Shown here: one piece after another, positions 44,735 to 56,942 of the stretch
Numbering within the stretch: position 1 is the first letter of the stretch
How the letters are laid out: the number at the start of each line of letters is the position of its first letter
Source: Pectobacterium parmentieri
Lineage (GTDB): Bacteria; Pseudomonadota; Gammaproteobacteria; Enterobacterales; Enterobacteriaceae
Assembly: GCF_001742145.1 (NCBI RefSeq)
Contig: NZ_CP015749.1
Span: 3,038,001-3,102,000 of the forward strand
DNA length: 64,000 nucleotides
Direction: 5' to 3'
Made by a program: the position numbers and the translations under genes
The notes under the pieces: generated by a model
What the model was told of the DNA's origin: nothing
Database searches by the model: none
The model's input: the letters and a program-made list of their open reading frames with translations, nothing else

Positions 44735-45700
44735 CTAATGTCTGGCGGATATCAGGCTTAGCACCGTGCGAGCATTACTGGCACTGGTGGCAATAACATC
44801 CACAATGCCAGAACGCAGCGCAGCCAGAATCGCCGTCGCTTTGGTGTTTTCAGAGGCAATGGCAATCACGTAAGGGATCTTGCGAAGCTGATCGAGACTC
44901 AGGCCGATAACTCGGTCGTTCATCACCGTATCGACAGGCCGCCCTTGAATATCCAGAAAGGCATATCCGGCGATATCACCAACAACGCCCTCATCCTGAC
45001 GCGCCGTGATGATCTCCTGTGAGGTAAACCAGCCGAGTTGAACCATAAAACTGTTTTCGTTCATATCGCCTAACCCCACCAATGCAATATCCGCCTTGCT
45101 TGCACGTTCAAGCGTGTCATTGATCAGACGGTTTTGCATAAAGGCAGATTTTAATGCCGGGTTTTCGACATAAGCAGGTGCGTACAGCGTTTCGCTCGTG
45201 GCATTAAATTTCCGCGCCAGATGACGACTGATATGATCGGCATCAATCAGTTCCCCATCGCGCTGCGTGCCGCCAATGCCACAGATAAACTTGCAGTGCC
45301 GTTCGGGAAAAACGCCCACGTGACTGGCGACCGCCGCCACATTACGCCCCTGCCCAACTGCCACGGACATGCCATTTTTCAAGATACTGGACAAGTAAGT
45401 GGACACCAGCGATGCCACCTGTTGGCGCTGTTCATCTTCATCATGGTGATCGATAGCAATCAGCGCACGTTTGATGCCAAAGCTCTTAATAAATTGCTGT
45501 TCAAGTTGAGAACTAAATACAGGATGGTAGCGGACATTAATTTCAACGATCCCTTCCGCCCGCGCACGTTTCAACAAACGCCCGACTTTGATACGCGAAA
45601 TACCAAAACGGCTGGCGATCTCTTCCTGCGTCTGTTGATTTTCATAATACGCAACGGCTATTTCCGTCAGTAATTCACTGTCTGAATCAAATTCGCTCAT
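44735..45700 (-). CDS. SorC/DeoR-family sugar-responsive regulator
   Basis: This 321-residue protein has an N-terminal helix-turn-helix (IAVAYYENQQTQEEIASRFGISRIKVGRLLKRARAEGIVEI). A SorC-type sugar-phosphate-binding domain follows (SVAVGQGRNVAAVA, CKFICGIGGTQRDGE, IALVGLGDMNENS, VDVIATSASNARTVLSLI). This family includes EryD of the Brucella erythritol operon, which is also linked to TpiA- and RpiB-like isomerases. It sits three bases after the TpiA-like gene and probably controls the divergent promoters at 46529-46773. Confidence 0.85.
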   Translation of the reverse strand: MSEFDSDSELLTEIAVAYYENQQTQEEIASRFGISRIKVGRLLKRARAEGIVEINVRYHPVFSSQLEQQFIKSFGIKRALIAIDHHDEDEQRQQVASLVSTYLSSILKNGMSVAVGQGRNVAAVASHVGVFPERHCKFICGIGGTQRDGELIDADHISRHLARKFNATSETLYAPAYVENPALKSAFMQNRLINDTLERASKADIALVGLGDMNENSFMVQLGWFTSQEIITARQDEGVVGDIAGYAFLDIQGRPVDTVMNDRVIGLSLDQLRKIPYVIAIASENTKATAILAALRSGIVDVIATSASNARTVLSLISARH

Positions 45701-45703
45701 GGC

Positions 45704-46528
45704 TTAACTCATTTTGGCTTCGCTTAGGGCCACGTGTTCACCCTGTTCATTCAACAATGCCGAAACACTGCGCACCAGTTGGCAGAAGTCATCCGCATTC
45801 CAGGCGGCCCTGCCGATAAATAACCCGTCAATATCTGCGCATTGAATAAGTTCACAGGTATTATGCGGATTCACGCTTCCGCCGTACAGAAGCGTAATAC
45901 AGGAAGCCGTTCTTTCGCCATAAAGGGCAACTAACGCCTGGCGCAACGCGACGTGAATATCCTGCGCTTCCTGTGCGGAAGATGGCGTCCCTCCTTCACC
46001 AATGGCCCAGATGGGTTCATAGGCGATGATGACACGTGTCGCCTGTTCCGCATTTAAGCCTGCAAGCGCAATTTTCATTTGCCGAATGACCGTTTCTCTG
46101 GAAACACCCCACGCCTTCTCTTGTGCACTGTCACCCACGCAAACTAACGGGCGCAACTGATAGCGTAGTGCGGCCTGCACTTTTTTCTGAATATCCGCAT
46201 CATTTTCTGCGAAATATTGCCGCCGCTCGGAATGTCCCAGTTCGACAAGCGTCGCACCGCAATCAGATACCATCATCGGAGACACCTCTCCGGTCCACGC
46301 GCCGTTGTCAGCGTAATGCATATTTTGCGCCCCTGTCAGGCAATTCACCTTGTGCGCAGACAGATACTCGGTCACTTCCCTTATCAAGGTAAAAGGGGGA
46401 ATCACAAAGGGCTGAGTGAATGCACCGGCAGCAGGGTTAAGCTGTTTGGATAGAACCGTACAGTAGTCGATCGCCTCCTGTCGGGTTTTATTCATTTTCC
46501 AACTCGTGCCTATCATCACTTTTTTCAT
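45704..46528 (-). CDS. TpiA-like triose/tetrulose-phosphate isomerase
   Basis: This 274-residue TIM-barrel protein has the triosephosphate isomerase catalytic residues: Lys in GTSWKMNKT, His in VELGHSERR, and Glu in IIAYEPIWAIGEG. It is longer and more divergent than housekeeping TpiA. TpiA-like proteins in tetritol clusters (EryH/LerI types) act on L-erythrulose 1-phosphate. Alternatively it may convert the DHAP made by the neighbouring PdxA2. I chose ATG 46528 because AAGGAGATGAC precedes it and the protein similarity begins there; the 73-codon upstream extension is not coding. Operonic with the regulator downstream. Confidence 0.82.
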   Translation of the reverse strand: MKKVMIGTSWKMNKTRQEAIDYCTVLSKQLNPAAGAFTQPFVIPPFTLIREVTEYLSAHKVNCLTGAQNMHYADNGAWTGEVSPMMVSDCGATLVELGHSERRQYFAENDADIQKKVQAALRYQLRPLVCVGDSAQEKAWGVSRETVIRQMKIALAGLNAEQATRVIIAYEPIWAIGEGGTPSSAQEAQDIHVALRQALVALYGERTASCITLLYGGSVNPHNTCELIQCADIDGLFIGRAAWNADDFCQLVRSVSALLNEQGEHVALSEAKMS

Positions 46529-46773: not shown

Positions 46774-47778
46774 ATGTCGACCGTAAAAAAACCCGTTGTA
46801 GCTCTGACTATCGGCGATCCAGCAGGGATCGGCCCTGAAATTTCGGTAGCGACCATGATGGATAAAGACGTGTATGAAGAATGCCGCCCTTTCCTCATCG
46901 GCTCACTCCCCATCATCCGCCGTGCAATGGCCATTAAACACTGCGATTTTGCGCTCAACATCATCACCTCTCCTGCCGAAGCCAAATTCACGTGGGGTAC
47001 GTTGGATGTGCTGGAAACGGGCGAATATGATTGCGATAGCATCGAATGGGGTAAGGTCCAACAGCTTGCTGGAAAGATGTCGCTTGATTACGTCATGAAA
47101 TCCATTGAGTTAGGCATGGCGGGTGAGATTGATGTTGTGTCTACCGCCCCCATCCATAAAGAAGCGATAAAACTCGCGGGCTGCAAATTGCCAGGGCATA
47201 CCGAAATTTATCAGGTTGAAACCGGTTCGGATTACGGCCTGACGATGTTCCATGTGCAAAAACTGCGGGTGTTTTTTGTCAGCCGCCATATCGCACTGAA
47301 AGAAGCCTGCGACTACGCAAACAAAGAGCGTGTTCTTGCTTGTGTGCAGCAAATTCACCATGAATTCACCGCACTGAATATTCAAAACCCGCGTATCGCC
47401 GTCGCCGCCCTCAATCCACACGCCTCAGATAACGGCCTGTTCGGCCATGAAGAGAAAGACAACCTGATTCCTGCCGTCAAAGCCGCTCAGGAAATGGGTA
47501 TCAACGCAATAGGTCCGATTCCGGCGGATTCCGTTTTCCATCTCGGAAAACAAGGACACTACGACGCCATTCTGTCGCTCTATCACGATCAGGGACATAT
47601 CGCCTGCAAAACGCTCGATTTCGAGCGCTCCATCACCATCACTTTCGGTTTGCCGTTTATGCGCAGCTCGGTCGATCACGGTACCGCTTTCGACATTGCA
47701 GGCACAGGCAAGGCAGGTACGGTCAGCATGCTGGAATCGACGCTGGTTGCCGCACGTTACTGGAAAATGAAGCACTAA
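46774..47778 (+). CDS. pdxA2: PdxA2-type 4-phospho-tetronate dehydrogenase
   Basis: This 334-residue protein belongs to the PdxA family: TIGDPAGIGPEI near the N-terminus, CKLPGHTEIY, ALNPHASDNGLFGHEE and YHDQGHIACKTLDFERSI with metal-binding His/Asp residues. Members adjacent to DUF1537 kinases oxidise 4-phospho-D-threonate or D-erythronate and decarboxylate the product to DHAP. They are distinct from pyridoxine-synthesis PdxA. The context (kinase gene 33 bases downstream, permease, isomerases) supports the catabolic role. It is the first gene of the rightward operon; AAGGGGAAATT precedes ATG 46774. Confidence 0.88.
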   Translation: MSTVKKPVVALTIGDPAGIGPEISVATMMDKDVYEECRPFLIGSLPIIRRAMAIKHCDFALNIITSPAEAKFTWGTLDVLETGEYDCDSIEWGKVQQLAGKMSLDYVMKSIELGMAGEIDVVSTAPIHKEAIKLAGCKLPGHTEIYQVETGSDYGLTMFHVQKLRVFFVSRHIALKEACDYANKERVLACVQQIHHEFTALNIQNPRIAVAALNPHASDNGLFGHEEKDNLIPAVKAAQEMGINAIGPIPADSVFHLGKQGHYDAILSLYHDQGHIACKTLDFERSITITFGLPFMRSSVDHGTAFDIAGTGKAGTVSMLESTLVAARYWKMKH

Positions 47779-47811: not shown

Positions 47812-49530
47812 ATGACGCGATATTTGGAAATTATCAGAGGCGGTAAAGGCTGGGGCGGACCGCTACTCGTGAATGTCACACCGGGGAAAAAAATTGCCTA
47901 CATTACCGGGGGAATCCGTCCCACCGTAGTAGATCGGTTGATGGAACTCACCGGCTGGGAATCTGTGGATGTCTTCAAACACGGGGAACCTGATGAACAA
48001 GAGATCGGTTTAGTGGTCATCGACTGCGGCGGCACGCTGCGCTGCGGTCTTTATCCCAAACGAGGGATTCCGACGATCAATCTCCACCCGACGGCAAAAA
48101 CAGGGCCACTGGCAGAATACATTCGAGAGGATATCTATGTCTCGGATGTCACCCCCGCGGGTATTCGGCTACGGGCAGAGGGAAAACAAGGAGACAAACT
48201 GGGGATTGTCGCTGACGATCTCACCGGCGCGACAACGATCGGCGTCCTGCTCGCGCGCAGCGGCATGAAAACAGCGGCCTTTTTTAATACCACGTCGTTC
48301 ACGGACTGTGAATCAGACTGGCAGGCTATGGTGATCAGCAGCGATAGCCGCCCTCTGCCCAAAGCGGAAGCGAAAAACCGCGTGAGAAATGCGACGCAAG
48401 CCCTGCTGGAACGCGGTGCGGTGTATTTCACTAAACGTGTCGATACCACACTACGCGGCGGTATCGGCTACGAAATTGATGCCATGCTGGAAGTACTGCC
48501 ACAGGAAACGGTCGCGGTGGTCGTTCCCGCCATGCCACAATCGCGCCGTATCGTGGTCGGCGGCTACTCGGTCATTGATTCCGTCGCCCTGTCCTGTACC
48601 GATGTCGCCAAAGATGTTCGTACACCAGTGACGGAAACCTTTGTTCCCGGCCTACTCAGTGAGCAAACGCATCATCAGGTGAAACACATCCCCCTGTCTT
48701 GCGTGTTAAAAGGCTATAACGCCATCAGCGATGCACTGGTTCAGCAGCAGCGGGAAGGCGCTCGCGTCATTGTCGTGGATGCCATTTCACTGGCCGATGT
48801 GGAAAATATTGCTCGCGCGGTTACCAAGCTGAACTGGAATGTACTGGCTGTCGATCCCGGTCCTTTTACCGAGCGTCTGGCCTTTACCAGAGAAATGATC
48901 CGCGATGAGGAACGTAAGGAGAAAGCGCGCATTCCTCAGGAACAACAGCAGGGTTCAATTATCGTCGTCGCAGGCAGCGCAACGCCGGTCACCAAAAAAC
49001 AGCTTACCGCACTCATTGAAACCGACCCGCGCGTTTGTCACATTCCGATTGATGCCGAACTGCTGATCGATAAAGAACATTCAGCGGGTATTGAAGTGGC
49101 AAGAGTGGTCAGACAGGCTCTGGAGTGTGTGAAAACTCACGCGAATGCCATCTTCGTTTTTGAATCCGCCTTAACTGGTCGTCTACTCGATCTCAGCATG
49201 GAAGAACAGCGTTTTGGGCTGGCGCATGGTCAAGCAGCAGAAAATATTAATCAGGGTCTGGGTAATATCGTAAAAACCGTGTTGGATGCTGCGGCTTCTG
49301 AAATTAAAGGCCTGTATATGACGGGTGGAGACACCATGGTCAACGTACTCAAACAGCTCGGTGCTAACGGTATCGAGATGGTGGATTACGTTATTCCTCA
49401 AACCGATCTGGTCAAAATCATTGGCGGTGATTACGAAGGATTAATTTGCGTCGGGAAAGGCGGTTTAACCGGCCCCGAAGATATTATTCACACCATTATT
49501 GATCATATTCACCGGGAAACGATGCAGTAG
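47812..49530 (+). CDS. Fusion: glucitol-type PTS EIIB domain + DUF1537 four-carbon acid-sugar kinase
   Basis: Residues about 1-115 align with the EIIB part of Srl[54 protein letters not shown] and [16 protein letters not shown]. Both cysteines of the CGGTLRC motif (72 and 78) are kept, so it could be phosphorylated. After a short linker (about 114-128) a complete DUF1537 kinase begins at [16 protein letters not shown]. It runs through [21 protein letters not shown], a later [16 protein letters not shown] and [17 protein letters not shown] to the C-terminus. DUF1537 proteins phosphorylate D-threonate, D-erythronate and related acids. Single-domain kinases are about 420 residues; this one is 572. 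The likely reaction is tetronate to 4-phosphotetronate for PdxA2. The role of the EIIB domain is unknown. Confidence 0.88.
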
Positions 49531-49634: not shown

Positions 49635-50660
49635 ATGAGAAATATAAACATTCTTGAAAAAATGAATAAAGTCCCAGGAGGACTGATCATTATCCCACTG
49701 CTTGCGGCGATACTGATGAATACCTTCGCACCATCGTTATTACAAATAGGCGGCCCCACAACCGCATTATTTAAAGCAGGTTCCAGTGCAATGATGGGAA
49801 TATTTCTTCTCATCTGCGGATCGTCAATTAATATTCGTCAGGCCGGACTCCCACTCTATAAAGGCACCATGCTACTGATGCTGAAATTCTGCGCGGGTGC
49901 ACTGGCAGTATGGTTTATGGGCGCTTTTTTTGGCCCTGCCGGGTTCTTCGGTATTTCTACACTGGCGTTTATTGCCTGTATCACCAGCTCAAACAGTTCA
50001 TTGTACATTGCCTTGTGCAGTAACTACGGTGATGCCAGCGATGCGGGTGCCATCTCCGTTTTTTGTATTAAAGACGGCCCTTTCGTAACCATGGTGGTTC
50101 TCGGCGTCAGCGGTTTAGCTAATATTCCGTTTGCAGCCCTGCTTTCCATGCTCATCCCGCTAATCATTGGCATGATGTGGGGCAACCTTGATGAGAAATT
50201 CAAGCAACTCTGCGCGGCGGCTCAACCACTGGTCATTATCATCATGTCGTTTGCCATTGGTGCCAATTCCAGTATGCACACCGTCTTCACTGCGGGCCTA
50301 TCTGGCATTGTTCTGGGCATTATTTCTGCCGTAACCGGATTGGTTTTCTACTTCCTGTACAACTTATTCCTGAAACGAAAAACGGCGCTAGGTGCGGCAT
50401 TGGGCACCACCGCAGCCAGTTCGGCATTGACGCCCGCCATGGTGGCGCAGGCCGATCCCACCCTCCAGATCTTTGTTGACTCCGCTACGGCGCAATTAGC
50501 AACGGCTAGCATTATCACCATGCTCACCGCCCCCGTCCTCGTCGCCTGGTTTGATAGTCGATTGAAGAAAAAAGGCATTATCCCATCGGGCGAAGAAAAT
50601 CATGCGCTACCGACCGGACAATCTCACTCACTCAATACACAGGCAGATAAGCCCAAATAA
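49635..50660 (+). CDS. KdgT-family acid-sugar permease
   Basis: This 341-residue inner-membrane protein has about ten hydrophobic segments and aligns with 2-keto-3-deoxygluconate permease KdgT. Shared stretches are KVPGGLIIIPLLAAILMNTFAP, FFGISTLAFIACITSSNSSLYIALCSNYGD, DGPFVTMVVLGVSG and GTTAASSALTPAMVAQADP. KdgT-type proteins are proton symporters for acid sugars. Here it probably takes up the tetronate used by the fused kinase. Alternatively, in this cluster it may replace the missing EIIC. It follows the kinase by 104 bases. Confidence 0.83.
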   Translation: MRNINILEKMNKVPGGLIIIPLLAAILMNTFAPSLLQIGGPTTALFKAGSSAMMGIFLLICGSSINIRQAGLPLYKGTMLLMLKFCAGALAVWFMGAFFGPAGFFGISTLAFIACITSSNSSLYIALCSNYGDASDAGAISVFCIKDGPFVTMVVLGVSGLANIPFAALLSMLIPLIIGMMWGNLDEKFKQLCAAAQPLVIIIMSFAIGANSSMHTVFTAGLSGIVLGIISAVTGLVFYFLYNLFLKRKTALGAALGTTAASSALTPAMVAQADPTLQIFVDSATAQLATASIITMLTAPVLVAWFDSRLKKKGIIPSGEENHALPTGQSHSLNTQADKPK

Positions 50661-50670
50661 GGTAGGAAAA

Positions 50671-51039
50671 ATGAGACGGATTATCTGGCAGGCAACAATC
50701 AGCACAGTGGGAGAAAATGCAGCATTATTTCTGGCAGAAAAACGTCTCATTCTTTTCAGCGATAATGCGCCTAAAGACATCGGTGATTATTGTATTACCC
50801 ATCACGATGGAGAGTTAATTCAACCGGTTTCTGTTCAGCAAAAAATAACGTTATTCGGCATCACCTATTCGATTAGCGCAATAGGGGATGTCGCCAGCCA
50901 AAATCTGAAAGAGCTGGGACACATCACGCTGTTATTTGATGGAGCAGAAAAAGCAGAATTACCCGGTACAGTTCACCTGATTGGGCCAATACCAACAACC
51001 TTGTCAGCACAGGGAAACATAACAATTTTTGAAGAGTAA
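50671..51039 (+). CDS. Stand-alone glucitol-type PTS EIIA (SrlB-like)
   Basis: This 122-residue protein aligns with SrlB, the glucitol EIIA: IIWQATISTVGENA, DYCITHHDGEL, AIGDVASQNLKELGHITLLFDG and ELPGTVHLIGPIP. The conserved active-site His in YCITHHDGEL is kept. I chose ATG 50671 because TAGGAAAA precedes it and the length equals SrlB; the frame extends upstream into the permease gene. It could pass phosphate from HPr to the EIIB domain fused to the kinase two genes upstream. No glucitol EIIC gene is present in the window. Confidence 0.88.
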   Translation: MRRIIWQATISTVGENAALFLAEKRLILFSDNAPKDIGDYCITHHDGELIQPVSVQQKITLFGITYSISAIGDVASQNLKELGHITLLFDGAEKAELPGTVHLIGPIPTTLSAQGNITIFEE

Positions 51040-51117: not shown

Positions 51118-51576
51118 ATGAAACCAATCGCTATTGGCGCAGATGATGCGGCCTGGAGTTTACGCGATACACTTACCCGCTATCTGGATTCGCTTAATAT
51201 TTCCTGGGTCGATTTTAGCAGCGATAAAAATCAGGATAACGCAAGCTACCCCGACGTCGCACATACGGTAGCCATATCAATTAAAGAAGGGACGCACGAA
51301 CGCGGGATTCTGCTGTGCGGCACGGGCATCGGCATGAGCATTGTGGCGAATAAAGTGACCGGAGTACGTGCGGCACAGTGCCATGACACCTATTCCGCCC
51401 AGCGCGCCAGAAAAAGCAACGATGCGCAGATCATCACGCTTGGCGCGCGCGTTATCGGGCCAGAACTGGCGAAAGAGATCGTCGCCGCCTGGCTGGAATC
51501 GGAATTTGAAGGCGGTGGCTCCGCACCGAAGATTGAAAAAATCAGTTATTACGAACATCAGGAAAATACCCGTTAA
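51118..51576 (+). CDS. RpiB/LacAB-family sugar-phosphate isomerase
   Basis: This 152-residue protein has the RpiB fold signature: IAIGADDAAWSLRDTL, the catalytic Cys loop GILLCGTGIGMSIVANKVTGVRAA and DAQIITLGARVIGPELAKEIV. RpiB-type proteins in tetritol clusters (EryI/DerI types) convert D-erythrulose 4-phosphate to D-erythrose 4-phosphate. The direct neighbour talA, with tktB next, could consume that product. It could also be a ribose-5-phosphate isomerase. It is the last gene of the cluster before the backbone resumes. Confidence 0.85.
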   Translation: MKPIAIGADDAAWSLRDTLTRYLDSLNISWVDFSSDKNQDNASYPDVAHTVAISIKEGTHERGILLCGTGIGMSIVANKVTGVRAAQCHDTYSAQRARKSNDAQIITLGARVIGPELAKEIVAAWLESEFEGGGSAPKIEKISYYEHQENTR

Positions 51577-54991: not shown

Positions 54992-55022
54992 GGCCTAATT
55001 GGCGTCAACACAGGGTAAAACT

Positions 55023-56942
55023 ATGAATTATCAAAAACTTGGAGTCGACATACTCGCATTGAGCGGCGGCAAGCAGAACGTCAGTAAACTGACCCATTGC
55101 GCCACCCGCTTACGCTTTGAGTTCAACGACAACCATGCGGTACAGGCAGACGCGATTGCTAAACTCCCCGGCGTCATTAGCGTGGTCGATCGCGGCGGTC
55201 AGTTTCAGGTGGTGATCGGCAACGACGTTCAAATCACCTACCGGGCGATTTTGAATGAGATTGGCGAAATGAACGGCCAGCGCCACACAGGTAGTAAGGA
55301 ACAGCAGAAGAAAGGCGGCATTTTCTCGCAAATCATCAGCGTGATTTCCACCACCTTCACCCCCGTCATTCCGGCAATTACGGGCGCGGGGATGATCAAA
55401 GCGCTGCTGGCAATCCTCAAGCTGACGGGGTTAATTTCCGCCGACAGCACGACCTATCGTCTGCTGGATACCATCTCCGATGCGGCTTTCTTCTTCCTGC
55501 CCGTGCTGCTGGCCTACGGTGCCTCCATCAAGTTCGCCTGTAACCCCATTCTGGCAATGACGATTGCTGGCGCCTTGTTGCACCCGAATCTGGCCCAGCT
55601 ACTGGCATCAGGCGGGCCGATCAGCTTTATCGGCATTCCGGTACGGCTGGCGGACTACGCCGGATCGGTGTTACCGATCATTCTCACCGTGTGGATCATG
55701 TCCTACATCGAGCAATTTGCTGAAAAGATCTCGCCGTCCATGATCAAATTTTTCACCAAGCCGATGATCGTGCTGCTGTTTACCGCACCGCTCGCGCTGG
55801 TAGTGATTGGGCCTTTCGGTATTTTACTCAACGATCTGGTCGCCAGCGGTGCTGCCATCATTGACGGAAAGGCAAGCTGGCTTATTCCGATGTTGATGGG
55901 CGGCCTGCAACCGTTCCTGGTGATCACCGGTACGGCCTGGGCGATGACGCCGATTGCCACCTCGCAGCTTACCCGTAACGGTTTCGAGATGATCAACGGT
56001 CCCGGCATGCTGGCGTCCAACATTGCGCAGGGTGCCGCCACGCTGTGCGTCGCGTTTAAAACCAAAAACAAAAATCTGAAACAACTGGCCTCTTCAGCAG
56101 GCTTCACCGCCCTGCTGGGGATCACTGAGCCTTCCCTGTACGGGGTTACGCTGAAACTGAAGAAACCGCTGATTGCTGCCATGATCGGCGGGGGCTGTGC
56201 GGGTATCTATGCGGGTTTAGCTGGGTTGGTTCGCTACGCTTTCGTTTCACCGGGGCTGGCAGCGCTGCCTGCTTTTATTGGTGAAAACCCGATGAATATC
56301 GTACATGCGCTGATCACCTGCGCCATTGCGATTGTCGTCACGTTTGCGCTTACCTGGATCATGGGATTCGACGATCCGGTGGATGAAACGGACAATGCTC
56401 AAGCAGACTCAGCCCAAGCAGACCCACACCACCCAGCACCGTCAGTTAATACCACACAAAAATCGCAGGCCATAGCAGGTCACACTGAACCACAGGCGAT
56501 TCTCAGCCCGCTGTCCGGCAAGCTGGTCGCGCTGAATGACATCAACGATGACGTATTCTCACAGGGATTACTGGGGCAAGGCGTGGCGATTATTCCTGAC
56601 AACGGTGAAGTCGTCGCGCCCGTCAGTGGGGAAATCATCACGTTCCTTGAGTCCAAACATGCCGTCGGTATCCGCGCGGATAACGGTCTGGAATTACTGA
56701 TTCATGTCGGGCTGGATACGGTGAACCTCAACGGCAAACACTTTACGGGTTACATCAAACCGGGCGACCGCGTCACCGCTGGCGACAAATTAATTAGCTT
56801 CGATCTGCATGAGATCACACGTTTAGGGTATGACCCGATTACGCCAGTCGTGATCATCAACAGCGATGACTACGCCAGCGTCGTCTGCACCGTGCCACAG
56901 CCGATCGCACAGATGGATACCATCATTAACGTGAACGCCTGA
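55023..56942 (+). CDS. bglF: BglF-like beta-glucoside PTS enzyme EIIBCA
   Basis: This 639-residue PTS permease imports and phosphorylates beta-glucosides. EIIB is at about 1-85, with the phospho-Cys in SKLTHCATRLRFEF. EIIC covers about 105-460 (LLGITEPSLYGVTLKLKKP). A Gln/Ala-rich linker follows, then EIIA at about 490-635 (SPLSGKLVALNDINDDVFSQG, phospho-His in LELLIHVGLDTVNLNG). I chose ATG 55023 (MNYQKLGVDIL) with AGGG upstream. First gene of bglF-bglB-bglG, controlled by the RAT/terminator leader. Confidence 0.92.
   Translation: MNYQKLGVDILALSGGKQNVSKLTHCATRLRFEFNDNHAVQADAIAKLPGVISVVDRGGQFQVVIGNDVQITYRAILNEIGEMNGQRHTGSKEQQKKGGIFSQIISVISTTFTPVIPAITGAGMIKALLAILKLTGLISADSTTYRLLDTISDAAFFFLPVLLAYGASIKFACNPILAMTIAGALLHPNLAQLLASGGPISFIGIPVRLADYAGSVLPIILTVWIMSYIEQFAEKISPSMIKFFTKPMIVLLFTAPLALVVIGPFGILLNDLVASGAAIIDGKASWLIPMLMGGLQPFLVITGTAWAMTPIATSQLTRNGFEMINGPGMLASNIAQGAATLCVAFKTKNKNLKQLASSAGFTALLGITEPSLYGVTLKLKKPLIAAMIGGGCAGIYAGLAGLVRYAFVSPGLAALPAFIGENPMNIVHALITCAIAIVVTFALTWIMGFDDPVDETDNAQADSAQADPHHPAPSVNTTQKSQAIAGHTEPQAILSPLSGKLVALNDINDDVFSQGLLGQGVAIIPDNGEVVAPVSGEIITFLESKHAVGIRADNGLELLIHVGLDTVNLNGKHFTGYIKPGDRVTAGDKLISFDLHEITRLGYDPITPVVIINSDDYASVVCTVPQPIAQMDTIINVNA

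Follow-up and report, generated by a model that had tools for sequence, protein, structure and literature searches.

A glucitol EIIB domain joined to a DUF1537 sugar-acid kinase in Pectobacterium parmentieri, beside an EIIA gene and in a genome without a detectable EIIC

Main finding

An operon of the soft-rot bacterium Pectobacterium parmentieri encodes a protein in which the EIIB domain of the glucitol phosphotransferase system (PTS) is joined to a complete DUF1537 kinase, together with a separate EIIA-glucitol protein, in a genome where the membrane component EIIC-Gut is not detected. Judged by sequence, the relay from EIIA to EIIB is complete, and selection has maintained it although its transporter was lost or was never there. 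The best reading, to which we assign a probability of about 0.48, is that the protein would be an ATP-dependent sugar-acid kinase whose activity is gated by PTS phosphorylation. An earlier, sequence-only reading of the window (the whole 64,000-nucleotide stretch of contig NZ_CP015749.1 that was analyzed) had recognized the fusion but overlooked two things, the EIIA-glucitol gene in the operon and the absence of a genomic EIIC-Gut.

The fusion gene and its operon

The features discussed below are the following, in window coordinates.

44735..45700, minus strand: SorC/DeoR-type sugar-responsive regulator (PF04198, 3.1e-81)
45704..46528, minus strand: triosephosphate isomerase paralogue, starting at an internal ATG (PF00121, 1.8e-76; NF000722 over cut-off)
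46774..47778, plus strand: PdxA-type phospho-acid dehydrogenase (PF04166, 2.2e-97; NF002992, 590.5 bits against a cut-off of 470)
47812..49530, plus strand: whole fusion gene, 572 amino acids, a single open frame without internal stop
47827..48186, plus strand: EIIB-glucitol domain of the fusion, residues 6-125 (Pfam PF03612, EIIBC-GUT_N; E 8.3e-48)
48199..49485, plus strand: DUF1537 kinase of the fusion, SBD_N at residues 130-355 (PF07005, 2.2e-58) and NBD_C at residues 384-558 (PF17042, 8.7e-29)
49635..50660, plus strand: KdgT-family permease, the sole transporter gene of the cluster (PF03812, 3e-109)
50671..51039, plus strand: EIIA-glucitol gene, starting at an internal ATG of the 50602 ORF (PF03829, 2.3e-30)
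51118..51576, plus strand: RpiB-type sugar-phosphate isomerase (PF02502, 1.2e-50; NF004051 over cut-off)

The proposed fusion is borne out by Pfam matches far over the cut-offs, with 163 bits against 22.8 for EIIBC-GUT_N and 198.2 and 101.6 bits for the two kinase halves PF07005 and PF17042, by one uninterrupted frame, and by homologues with the same architecture. No stop or frameshift lies between the two parts, and the gene is likewise a single open frame in six other genomes of the genus; since it is one open frame in other genomes and genera, the fusion is not a sequencing artefact. The profile match in the N-terminal part agrees with the earlier assignment to the EIIB of SrlE, although the matched stretch is about 120 residues long and not the "about 115" first estimated. 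After a short variable linker the kinase begins at residue 129-130, and both of its halves are matched, as expected of the complete enzyme that had been claimed. The two cysteines said to be retained in the CGGTLRC loop are present as C72 and C78, and are the candidate phospho-acceptors of the EIIB domain. Among solved structures, the first part is closest to the glucitol EIIB in PDB 9x2m (E 2.9e-47, residues 4-123) and the second to DUF1537 proteins (4xfm and others).

The NCBIfam models agree with Pfam at the level of the family and place the protein in no equivalog. The fusion scores 173.3 bits against a cut-off of 458.7 for the full-length glucitol IIBC (SrlE, TIGR00825), over residues 5-124 only, and 203.2 bits against 450 for the D-threonate kinase equivalog DtnK (NF047819). 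Compared with SrlE, the glucitol PTS EIIB/EIIC2 protein (PF03612 plus PF07663), the EIIB domain is 63-69% identical to the SrlE-type proteins listed, shares both loop cysteines with the SrlE rows and likewise has an EIIA-Gut partner in the genome; it differs in that the EIIC half is missing, the C-terminal part is a soluble kinase and the genome is without EIIC-Gut. Compared with the DUF1537 kinases DtnK, OtnK, and DenK, the protein has both Pfam halves and a PdxA partner as in the D-threonate pathway, but differs from them in carrying an EIIB domain and in its distance from the DtnK cut-off. Zhang et al. 2016 reportedly describe that pathway with a DUF1537 kinase and a PdxA partner.

The order on the plus strand is PdxA-type dehydrogenase, fusion, KdgT, EIIA-glucitol, and RpiB-type isomerase. 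The PdxA and triosephosphate isomerase neighbors fit a route from a four-carbon acid to dihydroxyacetone phosphate (DHAP). In such a pathway KdgT would take up the substrate, probably a sugar acid of four carbons, and after its phosphorylation the PdxA-type enzyme would decarboxylate it oxidatively, yielding a keto-phosphate (DHAP, for example) for triosephosphate isomerase; the RpiB-type gene might point to the use of a five-carbon acid as well, with erythrulose phosphate as the product. Two other DUF1537 genes in the same genome are only 26-30% identical to the fusion kinase, so the latter probably has its own substrate. Elsewhere in the window, a 647-residue frame at 54999-56942, downstream of a transketolase-like frame, resembles by eye a beta-glucoside-type PTS EIIBCA.

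Clusters with triosephosphate isomerase, PdxA, DUF1537, (RpiB), and KdgT are found in Firmicutes and Pasteurellaceae, with similar gene content and kinases 46-57% identical to this one, but without the EIIB fusion. Similar clusters lacking EIIA and EIIB are widespread: among the best 80 of 119 confirmed loci, 18 have the fusion, 61 have an unfused kinase without EIIB, which counts against gating, and one (L051) ends at a contig edge and was assigned to neither class.

An EIIA-EIIB relay kept without its transporter

Neither EIIC-Gut profile (PF03608, PF07663) has a match in the complete 5.03-Mb genome, and none was found in 25 genomes of the genus (this one and 24 others). The genome holds one EIIB-Gut match, which is the fusion, and one EIIA-Gut match, which is the operon gene; with both in the operon and no EIIC-Gut, the relay cannot serve sorbitol uptake, and the EIIB piece therefore probably controls or feeds the kinase and is not a means of moving sugar. 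A survey of 17 of the 18 fused loci (the broken L050 being left out), this genome, and the unfused locus L114 found EIIC-Gut in 10 of the 18 genomes that carry the fusion and none in the other eight, several of which are drafts and one a metagenome-assembled genome, so that some of these absences may be gaps. All eight EIIC-less genomes have exactly one EIIB-Gut and exactly one EIIA-Gut, the latter beside KdgT. EIIA adjoins KdgT in 15 of 18 fusion loci, counting L036, whose EIIA and most of KdgT sit on another contig (L150). The locus has no EIIA in Tolumonas (L046), Zophobihabitans (L047), and Gilliamella (L049), and all three genomes have the EIIC and EIIA of a sorbitol PTS elsewhere.

In an even sample of 397 genomes across the order, EIIC-Gut occurs in 57 and EIIA-Gut in 58, and EIIA-Gut without EIIC was met only in this genome and in G672, where the match is a fragment; EIIA is thus otherwise tied to EIIC in the order, and the fusion operon is where the tie breaks. 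In G717, which has both the fusion and EIIC, an EIIA-Gut gene is transcribed divergently beside the dehydrogenase gene, in another place and orientation.

The operon EIIA has two histidines of interest, H44 and H84. The H84 column, in the LGH motif, is histidine in 42 of 42 EIIA rows. H43 of SrlB is the annotated site, and the H44-equivalent is absent in six of the 42 rows (L115, L114, L157, L153, L034, and L048). The only EIIA in the genome of Pantoea sp. A4 lacks it while keeping the invariant histidine, and this counts against gating. Loss of this residue as proof of a dead relay (Pantoea A4, L114, L157) is weakened by L115, which belongs to a Firmicute sorbitol operon and is without it too.

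With the relay complete by sequence and the kinase motifs intact, PTS gating of an ATP-dependent kinase is favored. HPr~P would phosphorylate the operon EIIA, which would in turn phosphorylate EIIB at C72. Whether EIIB carries phosphate would then alter either the activity of the kinase or the transfer of substrate to it from KdgT. Counted for gating are the EIIA-Gut gene and an EIIB-Gut domain with its cysteines kept, the placement of the genome's sole EIIA-Gut and EIIB-Gut matches in this operon with no EIIC-Gut, the rarity of EIIA without EIIC in the order, the operon EIIA of all eight EIIC-less fusion genomes, the conservation of EIIB and of the kinase columns given below, and the precedent of glycerol kinase, which lies outside the PTS and yet is under the control of HPr~P or EIIA-Glc. 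The readings rank with gating first, then docking to KdgT, then a PTS phosphate donor, and then a relic, a small share of the probability going to none of these.

The KdgT permease as a possible partner

The second-ranked reading, which we consider unlikely, is that EIIB binds KdgT (with EIIA) and so holds the kinase at the membrane to phosphorylate incoming substrate, phosphorylation of the cysteine tuning the docking or being incidental. A membrane partner is the normal target of EIIB-Gut, and KdgT is matched in 17 of 18 fusion loci, though it is cut by the contig end in L036 and split into two frames in L046 and L050; the exception is L047, with no KdgT match within its 17.7 kb. Against this, docking alone would not need the strictly kept cysteine loop, and 53 of the 61 unfused-kinase loci have a KdgT match without any EIIB. 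In Tolumonas osonensis, the KdgT gene beside the intact fusion lies in two overlapping frames (L046:9802-10808) and may be broken.

Docking also draws on two Lactobacillales, Tetragenococcus solitarius (L114) and G274 (L157), in which a relative of EIIA-Gut follows KdgT beside an unfused kinase. Only one of the 61 unfused loci (L114) has an EIIA-Gut beside it, L157 having been found in addition. In the EIIA tree these two group with Firmicute EIIAs, on a branch apart from the enterobacterial operon EIIAs (98/87, 96/92), suggesting repeated recruitment of EIIA-Gut to operons of this kind; with its long branches and a long-branch warning, the tree does not separate one from two recruitments for the two enterobacterial operon types. 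No EIIB-Gut match was found in the genome of G274, so EIIA there cannot act through EIIB, and this perhaps points to KdgT as a partner. An EIIA-KdgT pair without EIIB counts against gating, and the Lactobacillales pairing is the main result that a simple gating model leaves unexplained.

A stronger version, which we regard as a long shot, has KdgT standing in for EIIC, so that KdgT, EIIA, and the EIIB-kinase would form one unit for uptake and phosphorylation, a group translocator of PTS-like design with a secondary transporter at its core, with the relay energizing or timing phosphorylation of the sugar acid at the membrane. KdgT was also considered as a hidden relative of EIIC, and this was rejected at the sequence level, a profile-profile comparison of 35 KdgT with 12 EIIC-Gut proteins giving a probability of 0.3%. 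By sequence KdgT has no solved relative, the one match obtained (E 0.5) being at chance level.

The kinase part and the phosphate-donor alternative

Returning to the favored gating of an ATP-dependent enzyme, an alignment of 69 fused and unfused proteins has 80 invariant columns in the kinase, among them G505, G506, and the G548 K549 G550 motif. Because the kinase keeps the residues common to its unfused relatives, ATP dependence is the simplest assumption. Less likely than docking is that EIIB~P acts as a phosphate donor, re-phosphorylating the kinase-bound nucleotide or phosphorylating the substrate itself, with PEP as the driving source as in DhaKLM. An EIIA-EIIB relay that ends in a kinase without EIIC resembles the layout of the PTS-dependent dihydroxyacetone kinase. 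Against a donor role, the fused kinase does not differ from its unfused relatives in the glycine motifs of the nucleotide domain.

Two residues specific to the fused proteins raise the odds of a donor very slightly. The kinase alignment shows C546, which lies two residues ahead of the nucleotide-domain motif GKGG, and likewise H410 in every one of its 41 fused rows, but each in just 2 of the 28 unfused ones. Reading the motif in the loci gave C546 for 17 of 17 fused loci and for no unfused locus; two further cysteines at this position come from L050, where the gene is broken, and from L051, where it is cut. Because the fused proteins are a single clade, clade-specific residues are expected without such a function, and C546 and H410 may reflect kinship alone. 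We regard the pair as a lead and not a test, C546 being a cysteine next to a nucleotide motif in a chain with a putative phospho-cysteine domain.

Conservation of the EIIB domain

In 19 fused proteins selected from 68, EIIB has the highest mean pairwise identity (0.749), ahead of SBD_N (0.720), NBD_C (0.708), and the linker (0.435), and EIIB is more conserved than SBD_N in 138 of 171 pairs and than NBD_C in 148 of 171. The dN/dS ratios of EIIB and kinase are 0.037 and 0.020 in the genus set (15 pairs each) and 0.083 (10 pairs) and 0.085 (15 pairs) in the wider set, G023 being left out for a differing length and pairs with zero or saturated dS dropped (leaving 13 of 15 for the linker in the genus set and 10 of 15 for EIIB and linker in the wider set). 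The EIIB part is under purifying selection and evolves about as slowly as the kinase.

The CGGTLRC loop is kept in all fused rows compared, with C72 and C78 in 41 of 41. Over 22 fused and 13 SrlE domains, 36 EIIB positions including both cysteines are invariant, and seven positions split the two classes (e.g., V54 versus G and G85 versus R); this comparison was made without the divergent L034 and L126. These two loci (in G025 and G071) encode the EIIC, EIIB, and EIIA of a second, divergent PTS of glucitol type, and the cysteine loop of L034 reads NCAGSLRCG. The weakest of the four readings, that EIIB is a neutral leftover of a chance srlE fusion, an N-terminal extension needed only for folding, would fit both a single origin next to proteobacterial SrlE and the seeming completeness of the nearest unfused kinases without EIIB, but is very improbable given the invariant positions with the cysteine loop among them, the low EIIB dN/dS within the genus, and an EIIA retained in genomes that have no other use for it.

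Distribution and origin

A homologue search scored 7999 candidates and retained 2563, and among the best 120 clusters of these the first 68 (P0002-P0069) have all three domains. Source names among the listed homologues include Pectobacterium, Dickeya, Klebsiella, Pantoea, Salmonella, Erwinia, Mixta, Intestinirhabdus, Orbus, and Zophobihabitans, and fusion loci were also found in Serratia, Klebsiella, Kosakonia, Pantoea, Mixta, Tolumonas, and Orbaceae. The names given to the fusion in Dickeya and Pantoea sources (P0005, P0042) read 'PTS sugar transporter subunit IIBC' despite the lack of an EIIC part.

Carriage is patchy, which counts against gating. The fusion is intact in 7 of 25 genomes of the genus (this one included) and broken in one (G021), and in the even sample of the order it occurs in 3 of 397 genomes (G000, G674, and G717), with a close unfused kinase in two further ones; G059 and G068 appear to duplicate genomes G019 and G014. 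E. coli gave no near match to the fusion locus; in a distant search 5050 of 5426 genomes had one matching place each, in no case spanning 80% of the gene, and the ten matches listed are all srlE. A single plasmid record, from Klebsiella pneumoniae, has a match.

In an EIIB tree of 22 fused and 15 SrlE-type domains, from which, as from the EIIA tree, identical and short pieces were dropped, the fused domains fall on one side of a branch and adjoin proteobacterial SrlE. Support for the fused side is 90/89, below the tool's star level, and there are long-branch warnings; a single origin of the fusion near proteobacterial SrlE is thus favored, without proof.

Damaged versions also occur. In P0073 and P0075 (157 and 153 members) the gene is in pieces, one of 362 residues with EIIB and SBD_N and one of 348 residues with the kinase part, which suggests gene decay in some lineages; the 348-residue piece is named 'type III effector Hop protein' in one Klebsiella pneumoniae source. 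In P0122, from Dickeya fangzhongdai, EIIB and a truncated SBD_N run into the C-terminal portion of a transketolase; a deletion between the fusion gene and the nearby transketolase gene is the probable cause. Both the fusion and KdgT are broken into several frames in L050 (Pectobacterium sp. PL152) and L008 (G021), with the EIIB piece still open, and in L050 the PdxA and triosephosphate isomerase genes are likewise broken.

Relation to known systems and meaning

The excerpts of PMC12928451, PMC4921024, PMC10783003, PMC10971088, PMC5445326, PMC7954711, and PMC8809351 that were searched contain no description of an EIIB-DUF1537 fusion; in them, a gene-fusion table in PMC4921024 lists DUF1537 with the PLP pathway, and PMC10971088 cites the D-threonate work of Zhang et al. 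2016. The earlier statement that no such example had been described holds for the full-text literature searched, a mention in Zhang et al. 2016 being possible, but protein databases contain many examples of the architecture, as the clusters above indicate. The nearest parallel known by family name is a triosephosphate isomerase-EIIB-Glc fusion (NCBIfam NF011497, PRK14905), which also joins an EIIB to a metabolic enzyme, but with another enzyme and another EIIB family.

In DhaKLM and in PTS-controlled glycerol kinase, PTS phosphate acts on a cytosolic kinase without an EIIC, though these systems differ from the fusion in their PTS domains and kinase folds and in having the PTS part as a separate protein. 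PTS modules drive transport, control transcription factors, and in DhaKLM power a soluble kinase. Here an EIIA-EIIB pair has been kept without its transporter and is covalently joined to an enzyme of another superfamily, and the genomes without any EIIC make the question of its role a clean one, because sorbitol transport cannot confuse the result. If the relay drives the kinase, it would be a second PEP-dependent soluble kinase system; if it gates the kinase, it would provide direct, enzyme-level catabolite control of sugar-acid use in plant and gut bacteria.
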